This document shows, piece by piece, positions 34,505 through 40,721 of a stretch of 64,000 bases of DNA. Made by a program: the position numbers and the translations under genes. This DNA comes from Bifidobacterium gallicum DSM 20093 = LMG 11596 (lineage in GTDB: Bacteria; Actinomycetota; Actinomycetes; Actinomycetales; Bifidobacteriaceae): the NCBI RefSeq assembly GCF_000741205.1, contig NZ_JGYW01000011.1, positions 1-64,000 of the forward strand, given 5' to 3'. The first letter of the stretch is position 1. The number at the start of each line of letters is the position of its first letter. The notes under the pieces are model-generated. The model did no database searches and had not been told where the DNA came from. It saw nothing but the letters and a program-made list of their open reading frames with translations.

Positions 34505-36517
34505 TCACTCGTGTTGGCGTTTGCGCCAGCACATTAGCAACCCTGTGACGCCAAGAGCAACTAGAACACCTCCCCATGCGCCATCCCATCCTGGGCCTCC
34601 CGTATCGGGCAAACGTGGACCAGTAGCGTCGTCATGCGGTTGCGGTGTGGGCGTGTCTGCGGGATATCGCACATGCACTTGCACGCCGGGACCCGCGTCC
34701 GTGGCGAAATCCCATGTGTGAGCTGGCAGTTGCCCGCTCTGTGCAGTCAATGATTGCAGTTGTGGATGGTAGCCTTGCTCGTCGCGTGCCACGTTGACGC
34801 GTAACACGAGTCCTTGCTCAGGCATGTCACTCGTGTATGCGGCTGATTGCGGCATGCGTTGGGTGAGCCGGTAGTAATGCGTGCCTTCCTGTGCATACGC
34901 CTCATCGTTGAGCATCGTGCATATGGTGGTGTCCCAGGTGCGCTGGCTGATGTGATGAGTCTGGATCGGCGCATCTTTCTTGGGTTGCACGTGCGTATAT
35001 CGCGACGCTTCATCGACAACCGGTTCGCCTTGCCCGTCAGTGCCTACATCCACTTCTTGCAAGTCGAAAGCGTAGTCTTCATCGGCGTTCGCGTGGCCTT
35101 GGGGATCGTCAACAACGAGACGTAACGGTACGTGCCCGTAATGGCCGACGGGAGTATCGGGCGTGGTGGGTGGCGTATCAGGATTGCTGGGAGGTGTGGT
35201 GGGATCGGGTTGGGGCTGCACTGTGGTGGCGTCACGTAAGAACTCATGCAATGGTGTGGCCAATTGCAGGCTATGCGCAATGAACGCCCCATTGGCTGTT
35301 TGACCGTACGAGCCTTGCCCGACGATCACATGGGCATGTGGTGCGACAACGAATCCGTAAGTATCCCCCATCGCATGCACTTCGGTGGCGTTGGGGTATG
35401 CGAACAGGATTTGTGGACGGTGTGGCCTGTCTGGCGAGTTGTCGTCAATGTTGGCTGGTTGTATGCCTTGCGGCGCGTCAAGTGTGTCAAATAGCAGGAA
35501 TGGCATGACTACAGGGTGCTCAGCCGAACCTTCGTCATTCGTCACGATTGTTGTTTCGGGCACGCTGAGAAATCGGTCAGACCCTTGCTGCACTTCTTCG
35601 GTATGGATCTGATACCCGCGCAGATCAATGCGCAATCCTTGGGTCATGTTGGTGGCCGCGCGATTGGTGAGTGCAATCGTAAAGCCGGGTTCGCAGGCGA
35701 TCATGACCACGTTGGATACCGAGCAATGTGCGCTGTCGGCTCCGGTTATGGCAAATCGCCACCCTGTCCATGAGGATGCGTCGGGTTGCGTATCAATATG
35801 AATGCTGGCACGTGCGGCGAGCGCTGTGGTTTGCGTTGCCGCATCGGCTATGATCGCGTCAATGTCCGCATAGGTGTCGGTGAACCGCAATTGGGTGTAG
35901 CGGCGTACGCTGGTGCGATGTCCGAAGTCGGATTGGGACGTCATCCAATGCGCCGCATTTGTGGTACCGAGGTAGATGGGCAGCACGCCCGTGACCGGGG
36001 TATCAGGTTGTTGACTGTCGCTGAGATTGAGATTGCCGTTGCCAATCACATCCGCGTTGCCACGGATATAGGACGGTACAAGGTTGCGCCATCGGCCGTT
36101 GCCCCAGGTCAGTGCGCCTTGACGACTTCCATATTGGAGCACGTCGCCGCCGACGAGCATTTCCCCGATCATTTGCGGCGTGTGCATGTCCAGATCCGCT
36201 TGGGTGACGATGCCGATATGTGACAACGCGTATGCCATCGTGGGCTTCCCGCAATCTTGCGTAAACGTGCGTGTGGTCACATAGGTCGCATTGGGGTCGT
36301 TGCCGTCAGCACCTCCAGCAGGTTGGCACTCGGGTGTCGCGTTCCGGTTTGGCGCAGTGTCGTTTGATGTGGTGGCGTCCCTGGATGGACCGGTTGATGC
36401 GGGTACAGCTGCCGCTGGTTTGGGCAAACCCGTCATGATGGTCAACGTCAGTAAAAGCGCCATGGCCAGCTTGGCCATGCGCTGTAATGTCAGATGCCGT
36501 GTGGGTTGTTGTTCCAT
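34505..36517 (-). CDS. LPXTG-anchored choice-of-anchor-A-like surface protein
   Basis: The 670-residue protein begins with a signal peptide (MAKLAMALLLTLTIMTGLPKPAAAV after 13 residues). A domain of about 400 residues follows with GEMLVGGDVL, VIGNGNLNLSDSQ and PQILFAYPNATEVHAMGDTYGFVVAPHAHV, resembling choice-of-anchor-A proteins. A Pro/Thr/Asp-rich linker and a pilin-type beta domain (VPLRLVVDDPQG to GLVLRVNVA) come next. It ends in LPDTGG, a hydrophobic stretch and RKRQHE, a complete sortase signal. GGAGG precedes the ATG. No sortase gene is nearby. I infer a wall-anchored adhesin-like protein; the ligand is unknown. Confidence 0.82.
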   Translation of the reverse strand: MEQQPTRHLTLQRMAKLAMALLLTLTIMTGLPKPAAAVPASTGPSRDATTSNDTAPNRNATPECQPAGGADGNDPNATYVTTRTFTQDCGKPTMAYALSHIGIVTQADLDMHTPQMIGEMLVGGDVLQYGSRQGALTWGNGRWRNLVPSYIRGNADVIGNGNLNLSDSQQPDTPVTGVLPIYLGTTNAAHWMTSQSDFGHRTSVRRYTQLRFTDTYADIDAIIADAATQTTALAARASIHIDTQPDASSWTGWRFAITGADSAHCSVSNVVMIACEPGFTIALTNRAATNMTQGLRIDLRGYQIHTEEVQQGSDRFLSVPETTIVTNDEGSAEHPVVMPFLLFDTLDAPQGIQPANIDDNSPDRPHRPQILFAYPNATEVHAMGDTYGFVVAPHAHVIVGQGSYGQTANGAFIAHSLQLATPLHEFLRDATTVQPQPDPTTPPSNPDTPPTTPDTPVGHYGHVPLRLVVDDPQGHANADEDYAFDLQEVDVGTDGQGEPVVDEASRYTHVQPKKDAPIQTHHISQRTWDTTICTMLNDEAYAQEGTHYYRLTQRMPQSAAYTSDMPEQGLVLRVNVARDEQGYHPQLQSLTAQSGQLPAHTWDFATDAGPGVQVHVRYPADTPTPQPHDDATGPRLPDTGGPGWDGAWGGVLVALGVTGLLMCWRKRQHE

Positions 36518-36777
36518 GCCACCTCCGTCTTAGGCATGTTCCTCAGACCCGAAGAATTCAGTGCGCTTAGCGCGCAATGTCCCATACATGGCAGTCATCC
36601 GCGTCGCATATCAAGCGTTACGCTGGCTTGGAATGCAACATTTATGTACCGTATGTTGGTTCCTGTTCACGCCACTCCCAATATGACGCACCGGCGGAAT
36701 AATCCTGACCGTCTGAATTTTGGGTTGGTAGGAAGGTGGGACAGTCCGTCACCCCGATGACAACATATGGAGGTGCC
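36518..36777. other. divergent region upstream of copA
   Basis: No gene is seen in these 260 bases between the divergent surface protein and copper ATPase genes. I found no convincing CsoR- or CopY-type operator by eye. Confidence 0.5.
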
Positions 36778-39651
36778 ATGTCGGTTGTGGTGGTGCTTTG
36801 CGCCGTATTGCTGAGTTTGGCTGTTGGCTGGTATGCGTTTCGACCGAAACGTGCCGTATCGGCACAATCTGATGGAGCCATGCAAACGGCTGTGATTACG
36901 GTTCGGGGAGGCTATTCCCCCGCTGTGCTCGAGGTGCAAGCCGGACGGCCTGTGCAATTGGTTTTCGACCGTCAGGAAGGTGGTGAATGTTCAAGCCACG
37001 TCGTATTTGCCGAGTTTGGCATGGACGTGACATTGCCGGCGAACGAGCGTACCATCGTCACGTTGCCCGCGTTGTCTGCCGGTGAGCATGCGTATGCATG
37101 CGGCATGAACATGTTGCATGGTATGATCCACGCCGTTGGCGACGAGTCTGGGACCGCTACAGCGTCTCCTGCCGCCACCACGGTGGCAACGCCCGCCTCT
37201 TCACAGGCTCAATCCATGTCGTCGCTTCGTTTGGCTGATCAACTGGATGCCGAGGATGCGGCACGACAAGAAGAATTCCAGGAACTGCGCACACGGTTGA
37301 TTGTGGCGCTGCTCTGCACGATTCCCTTGTTGGCAGTGACGATGTTGCCGATGATTCCAGCCATACACGACTGGTTCAACCATGATGTGCCGGCATGGCT
37401 GTCCAGCGCATGGTTGCAGCTGGCGCTGACCATTCCTGTCATGTTCTACAGCGGTTGGCCCGTGCATCGCACAGGATGGTTGGCGATTGTGCATCGCGCA
37501 CCGGAGATGAACTCGCTCGTCACGTTGGGTACGATTGCGGCATTCGGGTATTCCTTGGTCGTCACGATGTGGCCTCAAGTGCTGCCCAGCACGTCACGCG
37601 AACCATATTATGAATCAGTCGGTGTGATTATCACGTTGATGATTGTGGGTCAAATGTTTGAGGCCAAAGCGCGCGCTGGTACGGGGCGCGCCATCCGCGC
37701 GTTGGCTGATCTCAATCCAAGCATGGCGCATGTGGTCCGTAACGGCGCTGTGCACACAATACCCACTGAGCAGGTGGTCGTTGGCGACATCCTCGAAGTG
37801 CGCCCCGGTGAACAATGCCCTGTCGATGGCATCGTGATTTCAGGCTCCTCATCGGTGGATGAATCGATGGTCACCGGAGAATCAATGCCCGTATCCAAAC
37901 ATGACGGCGACCATATTACGGGAGCGACGCTGAACACTACGGGCTCGTTGCGGTATCGCGCAACTGCCGTGGGGGCTGATACAGTGCTGGCGCATATCAT
38001 TGGCATGGTGCGCACGGCCCAAACCTCACAGGCGCCCATCCAACGTATCGCCGACAAAGTCGCGGGCGTGTTTGTGCCAGCGGTCATCATCATCGCAATC
38101 TGGACGTATGCCATCTGGTTCCTTGCAAGCGCGCCGAGCATGCATGTGCAAGGGCTCGTCTGCGCTATCAGCGTGCTCGTCATCGCCTGCCCATGCGCGC
38201 TGGGCTTGGCCACACCATTGTCCATCACGATCGCCACGGGCAAAGGTGCACAATTCGGTGTGCTGTTCCGGTCAGCCCAGGCGCTCGAACAAGCGCATCG
38301 TATCGACACGATTGTGCTCGACAAAACCGGCACTATCACTCAAGGCAAACCGACACTCGTCAATCGCATGAGCGTCAGTGATACTGACGATGACAACAGC
38401 TTGTTGGCCTTGGCGGCCAGTGTGGAGTCACGCTCCGAACATCCCCTAGCCCAAGCGATCGTGGCAGCGGCGCAACATACACAGCCAGCGGCAGAAGCCC
38501 ATGAGTTCATGAGCCATGCTGGTGGTGGCGTGACCGGGATTGTGGACGGTAAGCATATTGCCATCGGTAACGCACCATTTGTACAACAGCAGCTCAACCC
38601 ACACATGACCGCAACCAATGCATGGCATCAGATCACGGCATGGTGTTCGGACAATTCGCGTATGGGACGCACACCCGTCGTCATCGTTGTCGACGGCAAT
38701 CCTGCCGGCGCTTTTGCGATTGCCGACGCCGTCAAGCCCACGTCGCAACAAGCCATTGCCGCAATGCGAACTCAGGGGTTCCATGTAGTGCTCGTCACCG
38801 GTGACACGCAAGACACCGCTGAAGCCATTGCGCATGACGTCGACATTGAGCATGTCATCGCGCACGTGTTGCCGCAAGACAAAGCGCAGATTATATCCGC
38901 ATTGCAAGCCCAAGGCCATGTGGTGGCCATGGTTGGCGATGGCGTCAATGACGCCCCGGCCCTCGTGCAAGCCGATATCGGTTTCGCGATGGGGTCAGGC
39001 ACTGATGTGGCGATTGAATCCGCCGACGTGACACTGATGAATAGTGATTTGCATAGTGTGAGCACGGCCATCGCGTTGTCTCGCGCCACGATGCGCAATA
39101 TCCGTGAAAACCTCGCGTTCGCGTTGGGATACAACGGGTTGGGCATTCCAGTGGCAGCTGGTGTGCTCTATCCGCTCTGGCATGTGCTGCTCAACCCGAT
39201 GATCGCCGGTGCCGCCATGGCGTTCTCCTCATTGAGCGTGGTGCTCAATGCCAGCCGGCTCAACGCATTCCATCCTGACAATGCCAGCCTGCACGCCAAC
39301 CGGCGTTCCAAGAGCGCCATCGATATGGCAAGCCTGCAAGCGATCGCCGCAGCATCCCCTACCCGCGCTACGATGACGGCATCGTCATCATGCGCATCAC
39401 ATGACCCCGCCGTATCCGCGCCGTCCGGAACCTCCGAACGGCCAGCGGCCGCAACCATCAAGGAGCATTCCATGAACCAACCAGCACCCACCATCATCAC
39501 GACCGATCCCGTATGCGGCATGACTGTGGATCCGCAATATGCAGCCGCCACCCGCCAGGTGGATGGCAAGACGATCGCGTTCTGCAATCTCCACTGCGCC
39601 GAAATGTTCGACGCCGATCCCGAACGCTATTTGGCGCTGATTGAGCAATAA
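36778..39651 (+). CDS. copA: copper-type P1B ATPase with N-terminal cupredoxin and C-terminal YHS domains
   Basis: The 957-residue protein starts at 36778 (GGAGG, 4 nt spacing) and has three parts. An N-terminal TM helix leads to a cupredoxin-like domain ([45 protein letters not shown]) with plausible copper ligands. The P1B ATPase follows, with CPC (residues 471-473), DKTGT (D515), the HP motif SEHPLAQ and [10 protein letters not shown]. The last 59 residues are a YHS domain ([20 protein letters not shown]). There is no CXXC-type metal-binding domain. It should export Cu(I). The YHS part may also be made alone (see 39460-39651). Confidence 0.9.
39460..39471 (+). promoter_or_regulatory. internal ribosome-binding site inside copA
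   Basis: AAGGAG (39460-39465) sits 6 nt before an in-frame ATG at 39472, deep inside the copA frame. The spacing is ideal for initiation. Confidence 0.6.
39472..39651 (+). CDS. possible separate YHS-domain protein from an internal copA start
   Basis: Initiation at ATG 39472 would give a 59-residue protein, [20 protein letters not shown] through to ALIEQ. This is exactly one YHS/TRASH-like domain with CGM and C-x3-C cysteines, and the linker before it is low-complexity. YHS domains bind metal ions such as copper. It is in frame with copA, so two products could arise: the full pump and a free metal-binding protein, comparable in logic to E. coli copA making CopA(Z). Production of the short form is inferred. 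Confidence 0.5.
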
Positions 39652-39680
39652 GCCGTCACCACAACCTGTGAGCATGCACC

Positions 39681-39714
39681 AGGGGCCCATCGCCAACGAT
39701 GGACCCCTTTTTGC
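39681..39714 (+). terminator. copA terminator
   Basis: AGGGGCCCATCG and CGATGGACCCCT form a 12-position stem with one mismatch and loop CCAA, followed by TTTT. Confidence 0.85.
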
Positions 39715-39860
39715 ATAGGAGGCCATGTATCAGTCCCGCAATTTCTTGCGCCCTATGCCAAAACGGATATGATTCCCACATTGTTTCAAGCCATGCGGTC
39801 TAATGCTGGAACCAATGAGGCGCTCATGGTGCGCCTCCAGACACAAAGGGGCAGACAAGC

Positions 39861-40721
39861 ATGGCATATACCGTGGTGACCGGAGCGACAGGCGGATTGG
39901 GCAAACAACTGGCTTACCAAGCGGCACAAACAGGCCAGGACCTTGTGTTGACCGCCACGCATGCCGACGCGTTGACGCAACAACAGCAGATTATTGAGCA
40001 AACCTACCACGTACACGTGTACACGCTGGCCTGTGATTTGAGCGATGCCAACGCGGGCGTCACCATCCATGATTTCACGGCCTCGCATGGTCTTGATGTG
40101 ACTGAGCTGATCAATTGCGCGGGATTTGGATCATGGACGCGTTTCCTTGATGCCCCATGGTCAGCGATCAACGCCATGATGATGGTCAACATGCATGCGC
40201 TCACACAGTTGACCTATCTGTATGGCAACGACATGAAAGCGAAGCATCAGGGCCGCATCCTGAACATTTCCTCACTGGCCAGCCGCATGCCCGGCCCATA
40301 CATGGCGTTGTATTTTGCAACCAAAGCCTACGTGACCTCATTGGGCGTGGCATTGGCATACGAATTGCGCGGCAGCGGCGTGCACTGCACCACGATATGC
40401 CCAGGCCCGATCACGACCGGATTTGAAAAGAAAGCGGCCATGCATGGCAAGAACTTCTTCACGATGATGCATCCGGCCACGGCCGAGCAAGCCGCACGAT
40501 TCGCCTATCGTCGCATGCGCGCCGGCAAAACACTGGCGTTCCAAGGAGCTGGCGCCAAGCTTGGCGCATTCTGGGCACGAATCATGCCCACGCGCATCAT
40601 GACGGCCATCGCGGCAACGATGAATGGTGGCGACCCGACTCACGGCGCTGACGCATCAGCCACGTCGACCCCCAGCACAACTACAGCCTCATCCTCCACG
40701 CCACACAATACTGCCGCTTGA
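39861..40721 (+). CDS. short-chain dehydrogenase/reductase
   Basis: The 286-residue protein is a classical SDR: NAD(P)-binding TGATGGLGKQLA, a conserved NCAGFG, the active-site Ser in LNISSLAS and YFATKAY (the YxxxK pair). The closing CPGPITTGF is also typical. It resembles the DltE/YohF-like group of uncharacterised oxidoreductases; the substrate is unknown. A low-complexity Thr/Ser/Ala tail of about 30 residues ends the protein. GGGGC lies 10 nt before ATG 39861. It ends at a strong shared terminator. Confidence 0.85.
   Translation: MAYTVVTGATGGLGKQLAYQAAQTGQDLVLTATHADALTQQQQIIEQTYHVHVYTLACDLSDANAGVTIHDFTASHGLDVTELINCAGFGSWTRFLDAPWSAINAMMMVNMHALTQLTYLYGNDMKAKHQGRILNISSLASRMPGPYMALYFATKAYVTSLGVALAYELRGSGVHCTTICPGPITTGFEKKAAMHGKNFFTMMHPATAEQAARFAYRRMRAGKTLAFQGAGAKLGAFWARIMPTRIMTAIAATMNGGDPTHGADASATSTPSTTTASSSTPHNTAA

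Follow-up and report, generated by a model that had tools for sequence, protein, structure and literature searches.

Sequence evidence for a probable internal translation start ahead of the C-terminal YHS domain of copper ATPases in Bifidobacterium and related actinobacteria

Two elements of the arrangement considered here are already known: copA genes with two products, and internal in-frame starts. The E. coli gene copA yields both the pump CopA and a CopZ-type chaperone by frameshifting (Meydan 2017 and Drees 2017, as cited in the available portions of PMC7558416 and PMC5009743), and internal in-frame starts are described for 42 E. coli genes, among them infB, mrcB, and clpB, with no copper ATPase named in the available portion of that source (PMC11005335). 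In archaea, the TRASH metallochaperone CopM is encoded beside CopA (available portions of PMC3595675 and PMC7830388), while Streptococcus pneumoniae CupA is a separate, membrane-anchored chaperone, described in a source whose main text does not use the term YHS (available portion of PMC7558416).

A locus in a 64,000-nucleotide stretch of Bifidobacterium gallicum DNA (hereafter, the window) can be compared with these systems as follows: (i) as in E. coli copA, the coding sequence of the copper-ATPase gene itself is predicted to give a pump and a small copper chaperone, although E. coli uses the 5' part of the gene and a frameshift, whereas here a C-terminal YHS domain, or in some relatives an HMA domain, would be made from an in-frame internal start; (ii) as with the E. 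coli internal starts, a downstream in-frame start is predicted to give an N-terminally truncated product, but here the site recurs across the genus and outside it, and a whole separate domain would be produced; (iii) as with archaeal CopM, a small YHS/TRASH protein would be paired with CopA, although CopM has its own gene next to copA, whereas here the domain belongs to the pump's frame; and (iv) as in S. pneumoniae CupA/CopA, a cupredoxin-type metal-binding domain serves the copper ATPase, although CupA is a separate protein anchored in the membrane. A dual-product copA that uses an internal start in its 3' part was not found in the literature searched, which included few subscription journals.

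The first-pass annotation of this DNA had proposed a single frame encoding a cupredoxin, a copper ATPase, and a C-terminal YHS domain, and all of its coordinates proved right: 957 codons are open, and Pfam recognizes the domains within them (E1-E2_ATPase, residues 312–492; Hydrolase, 509–733; YHS, 909–952). The order in the product is N-terminal hydrophobic stretch, cupredoxin, CopA core, linker, and C-terminal YHS, and the features are as follows.

36778..39651, + strand: fused copper ATPase gene, 957 aa (open frame; Pfam and NCBIfam)
36853..37128, + strand: cupredoxin-like domain, aa 26–117 (PF13473, Cupredoxin_1, 56.7 bits)
37711..38976, + strand: P1B ATPase actuator and phosphorylation/nucleotide-binding domains, aa 312–733 (PF00122, PF00702)
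39262..39501, + strand: variable linker of 80 aa, from the end of the ATPase core to YHS (limits set by script)
39502..39633, + strand: YHS domain, with D-P-V-C-G-M and F-C-x3-C as putative metal ligands (Pfam and motif reading)
39687..39712, + strand: terminator-like stem-loop and T run 3' of the gene (consensus match only)

The protein belongs to the P1B-1 copper ATPases (CopA), scoring 580.8 bits with the copper-translocating ATPase model TIGR01511 (cut-off 397); it does not reach the stricter E. coli-type CopA model NF007952 (627 versus 1316). The solved structures nearest to it by sequence are copper ATPases (3rfu, 3j08, 7r0g), and its translation contains the CPC and DKTGT motifs. A profile of the YHS domain gave weak matches among solved structures, to a phenol hydroxylase component and ribosomal protein L24e.

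An Rfam search of 36000–40000 returned nothing at the gathering threshold, and neither the terminator-like matches in 36400–39900 (two, versus a shuffle mean of 2.6) nor the promoter-like matches (three, versus 2.3) exceeded those in shuffled sequence; one promoter-like match lies on the + strand at 39028–39057, upstream of the linker. These matches thus lend no support to a separate, though conceivable, internal transcript. By Pfam, the four flanking genes examined encode a branched-chain amino-acid transporter, an adhesin-like surface protein, a short-chain dehydrogenase, and a DEAD helicase, with no copper gene among them. The surface protein (34505–36517, – strand), which adjoins the copper gene, has an ice-binding-like adhesive domain (PF20597) and an LPDTG-type end.

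Directly before the YHS domain, the annotation had placed a ribosome-binding element and an in-frame start, and both are present exactly as claimed.

39460..39465, + strand: internal Shine-Dalgarno (SD) element AAGGAG (computed anti-SD duplex –7.5 kcal/mol)
39472..39474, + strand: internal in-frame ATG, 6 nt past the SD (sequence; conserved among homologues)
39472..39651, + strand: predicted separate product, a 59-aa YHS protein beginning MNQPAPT, plus stop (translation, Pfam)

The translation agrees with the proposed 59-residue product; PF04945 (YHS, cut-off 30.3) is matched in the window gene at 31.6 and 38.1 bits, the latter being the score of this product by itself. A duplex of –7.5 kcal/mol is attained by the first ATG or GTG in six of the 34 long non-overlapping ORFs of the window, by the best start within the first 60 codons in eight of the 34, and at 24 of 1518 plus-strand ATGs. 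The YHS domain lies in the pump's own open frame, with no stop or frame change between, so that the C-terminal domain does not fit the frameshifting of the E. coli CopA/CopZ type, as the annotation had held.

The best explanation, to which we assign a probability of about 0.8 on sequence evidence, is that internal initiation lets one gene, through one mRNA, supply both a pump and a YHS copper chaperone in free form. Ribosomes starting at 36778 would make the membrane copper pump with YHS as its tail, while other ribosomes would bind the weakly folded AAGGAG in the linker and start at 39472, making YHS alone; the small protein would most likely carry Cu(I) to the pump or buffer it, a task also ascribed to archaeal CopM (TRASH/YHS type) and bacterial CopZ.

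In a YHS profile search of 112 Bifidobacterium genomes, including that of the window, the domain was found in 94, in 93 of which it is fused. Re-detection gave 96 matches, made up of the 93 in long frames, a split gene in G010, and extra stand-alone copies (G011, G144). The long frames have at least 674 codons (the shortest, in G051, runs off its contig) and all align as ATPases, with core identities down to 51% (median 59%), and the putative metal ligands DP.C(G/D)M and FC...C are kept in all 93. The linkers, by comparison, range from 45 to 241 aa and come in 53 different lengths.

We counted a site as strong if any 5-mer of AAAGGAGGT ended 4–11 nt before an ATG, a rule that was fixed after inspection of the loci, not beforehand. 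A fused YHS domain without a conserved SD and ATG, the case that the annotation had named as refuting an internal start, was looked for and is the exception: 88 of the 93 fused linkers have a strong SD with an in-frame ATG (96 of 344 in-frame linker ATGs) and, species counts being non-independent events, so do 29 of the 31 clusters formed at 80% identity. In the ATPase cores, the same rule picked out 20 of 1926 in-frame ATGs and 40 of 1353 out of frame; it picked out six of 203 out-of-frame ATGs in the fused linkers and none of 55 in-frame ATGs in the linker between cupredoxin and ATPase (75 of the 93 genes, the 18 without a cupredoxin motif having been dropped). SD and start are thus conserved beyond chance, with five exceptions among the 93. 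Two of these (G122, G136) have a 4-nt SD before the ATG, two (G135, G142) merely a weak AAAGAAG-like purine stretch, and the linker of G144 has no SD-like element before any ATG; the two clusters lacking a strong site are G122 and a group of four containing G135. Choosing the best ATG by duplex energy was also tried but in a few genomes (e.g., G037) settled on a later ATG, drawn there by a second stretch rich in purines; the counts rest on the 5-mer rule.

The B. canis homologue (L068) is 55% identical over query residues 15–952, its fused ORF has 942 aa, AAAGGAATCCAAGATG precedes the YHS domain, and the YHS motif reads DPICGM. A tree separates the genus's fused copper ATPases into two deeply divided lineages (branch 1.42), both with the internal start. 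In some members of the genus (L016, L017, L018, and related loci), which keep the YHS domain and its start, the N-terminal cupredoxin may be missing: its motif was not found in 18 of the 93 fused genes (some loci are cut). Two loci (L080 in G144 and L081 in G142) have a long His/Met/Cys-rich stretch in the linker, HHMKHMDMDHMHHDAACCH in G142, which possibly provides extra copper binding.

The conserved element could conceivably be a by-product of a linker peptide, K-[E/G]-x-x-M(-D-M-x-M/H), kept for a protein reason such as copper binding by Met and His. Many linkers are indeed Met- and His-rich past the ATG (e.g., MDMHHMHM), and most have K-E or K-G before it. However, clades without the Met/His stretch (KGHTMNDVHEAIDPVCGM) keep the site, and the residues before the ATG change (KE in 49, KG in 23, and EG in 16 of 88) while the DNA element stays constant. 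At the site, 47 of 49 Lys-Glu pairs are written AAGGAG, all 23 Lys-Gly pairs AAAGGA, and all 16 Glu-Gly pairs GAAGGA, whereas in the rest of these genes the corresponding shares are 40.6% of 101, 1.9% of 108, and 4.0% of 297; the SD-forming codons are therefore used for KG and EG in 39 of 39 cases. All 13 clusters with glycine at the site use GGA, a codon used for 11.8% of the glycines in the cores and for 14.8% of those in other parts of the linkers. That residues change while an SD-forming DNA element stays argues that selection acts on the DNA of the SD itself, and we give the peptide explanation very little credence. The dipeptide comparison was used after a low-power one, random synonymous recoding with the yes/no SD rule, by which 57.8 of the 88 would be expected to keep a 5-nt SD; that test is weak alone because K-E by itself often gives AAGGA.

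AGGA and ATG are 6 or 7 nt apart at 85 of the 88 sites. Across the 88, the minimum free energy of the region from –30 to +20 (GC 0.46) averages –5.2 kcal/mol, versus –14.4 in the core and –13.8 in windows from the cupredoxin–ATPase linker. Neither among the 60 core windows sampled nor among the other windows of the linker does the median gene have one that folds as weakly as the site; the mean shares of such windows are 2.2% and 5.8%, respectively. Pausing of ribosomes at SD-like sequences has been proposed, and the SD of the window gene lies about 66 codons past the end of the ATPase core (script limits), which would suit an element that merely slows elongation while the last membrane helices insert, without initiation. 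Yet slowing would leave unexplained the ATG at a fixed gap, the weakly folded, start-like window, and the corresponding start in split genes described below, and we find this account scarcely credible.

Outside the genus, we drew on two overlapping samples of 396 genomes each, one from the order and one from the phylum (E up to 1e-12 for the phylum); the loci examined were the matches listed, 30 per search, and 20 chosen stretches, with five duplicates dropped. Among these loci are 27 C-terminal YHS fusions, including those in the nine genomes of a second genus of the family that had a match; 23 of the 27 have a strong SD and ATG, and the remaining four have a 4-nt SD. In the core parts of these distant genomes, 16 of 245 in-frame and seven of 110 out-of-frame ATGs fit the rule, which is more often than in Bifidobacterium. 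The YHS domain is N-terminal in 12 of the 20 chosen stretches and a small separate gene in several other loci. Some genomes have several YHS matches, in long frames and short ORFs: three in G391 (L179, L187) and seven in G483 (L182, L188).

The annotation had suggested searching related genomes for fused or separate YHS genes with the same site, and both states were found, with corresponding starts. Among the genomes examined of one family (f38), YHS is fused in six and a separate gene in three (L218, L219, L222); the separate genes lie 25–150 nt past copA, have a similar beginning (MxGK), and are preceded by an SD. In a further split locus (L217, family f52), the YHS start overlaps the copA end. 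In all four of these split loci, the YHS gene begins at the corresponding ATG behind an SD, and the starts also correspond between the f38 sister genomes G823 (fused) and G562 (split). In the one split case within Bifidobacterium (G010, L131), YHS starts 71 nt past the stop of copA and in a different frame; AAAGGA still precedes its ATG, but its metal-binding cysteines are lost.

Such correspondence is also what would be seen if copA and a separate YHS gene had been fused by loss of a stop, leaving the SD and ATG as useless leftovers of an operon. In a tree of 59 ATPase rows, which gives no direction of change, split and fused states alternate, the five split rows requiring five changes, all forced by well-supported branches, and for fusions as young as that of the f38 sisters a relic is possible. 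Within Bifidobacterium, however, the fusion is old, being present in 93 of 94 genomes whose ATPase cores diverge to 51% identity and also in the nine matching genomes of the second genus, and the SD persists in codons seldom used elsewhere, whereas useless leftovers should decay in so variable a linker. We therefore hold a relic to be distinctly improbable as a general explanation.

If the free YHS protein alone were needed, stops or frame changes would be expected in the variable linker, but its frame is open in 93 of 94 genomes despite 53 different lengths; if the fusion alone were needed, the SD and ATG would be expected to decay, but they are kept. Since the frame persists through all these lengths and the ligands are kept throughout, the fusion looks selected too, and both products appear to be under selection.

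A parallel case involves a different domain. In four of the 112 genomes of the genus (G003, G042, G126, G040; loci L147, L148, L149, and L150), none of which has a YHS match, CopA carries a C-terminal HMA domain, confirmed by Pfam for one of the four (L148), which we take to be of the CopZ type. In all four, AAGGAGG and an in-frame ATG directly precede it, e.g., CAAGGAGGTACCACAATG. The claim of a C-terminal HMA fusion extends to these four genomes of the genus, no absence being implied for the 297 genomes of the order that were also searched for HMA. As HMA and YHS are each preceded by an SD and ATG, two different metal-binding domains share the same arrangement.

On the sequence evidence, the internal site is conserved, selected at the DNA level, weakly folded, and matched by the gene start of split relatives. 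The proposal that YHS is also made alone thus gains support from the conserved SD and ATG, from codon choice, and from the starts of split genes; initiation by ribosomes at the internal ATG, a single mRNA for both products, and the ratio between them are what we infer from it. The chaperone role of the small protein is likewise inferred, by analogy, because of the domain type, the kept ligands, archaeal CopM, and the E. coli CopA/CopZ precedent. Alternatively, the small protein may be made and serve as something other than a chaperone, e.g., in regulating the pump or a transcription factor as a sensor or buffer of copper. We consider this unlikely, as the parallel fusions place a CopZ-type domain where YHS otherwise stands. 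Furthermore, a metallochaperone role is described for similar-sized TRASH proteins beside CopA (CopM, 56 and 71 aa; available portions of PMC3595675 and PMC7830388), although YHS has also been proposed as a sensor module, in a Mycobacterium phlei adenylyl cyclase, by a source according to which copper binding by YHS/TRASH in ATPases had not been experimentally demonstrated as of 2015 (PMC4626032, available portion).

Beyond the window gene, a pump with a free chaperone made from an internal start is probably a general and repeatedly evolved architecture of copper ATPases in this phylum, which would have arisen with both YHS and HMA domains, been kept long after fusion because both tethered and free forms are needed, and have its product ratio set at translation. 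Such a start easily escapes notice, since the long ORF conceals it. Our results suggest that a bacterial gene fusion can keep the start of a former gene as a working second start, and the coexistence of fused and split relatives can serve as a natural experiment on the reasons for keeping such a domain both tethered and free. If true, the arrangement would join E. coli copA as a second way, different in mechanism, of obtaining a pump and its chaperone from one gene, one that is found across a gut-bacterial genus and in further families of the phylum.
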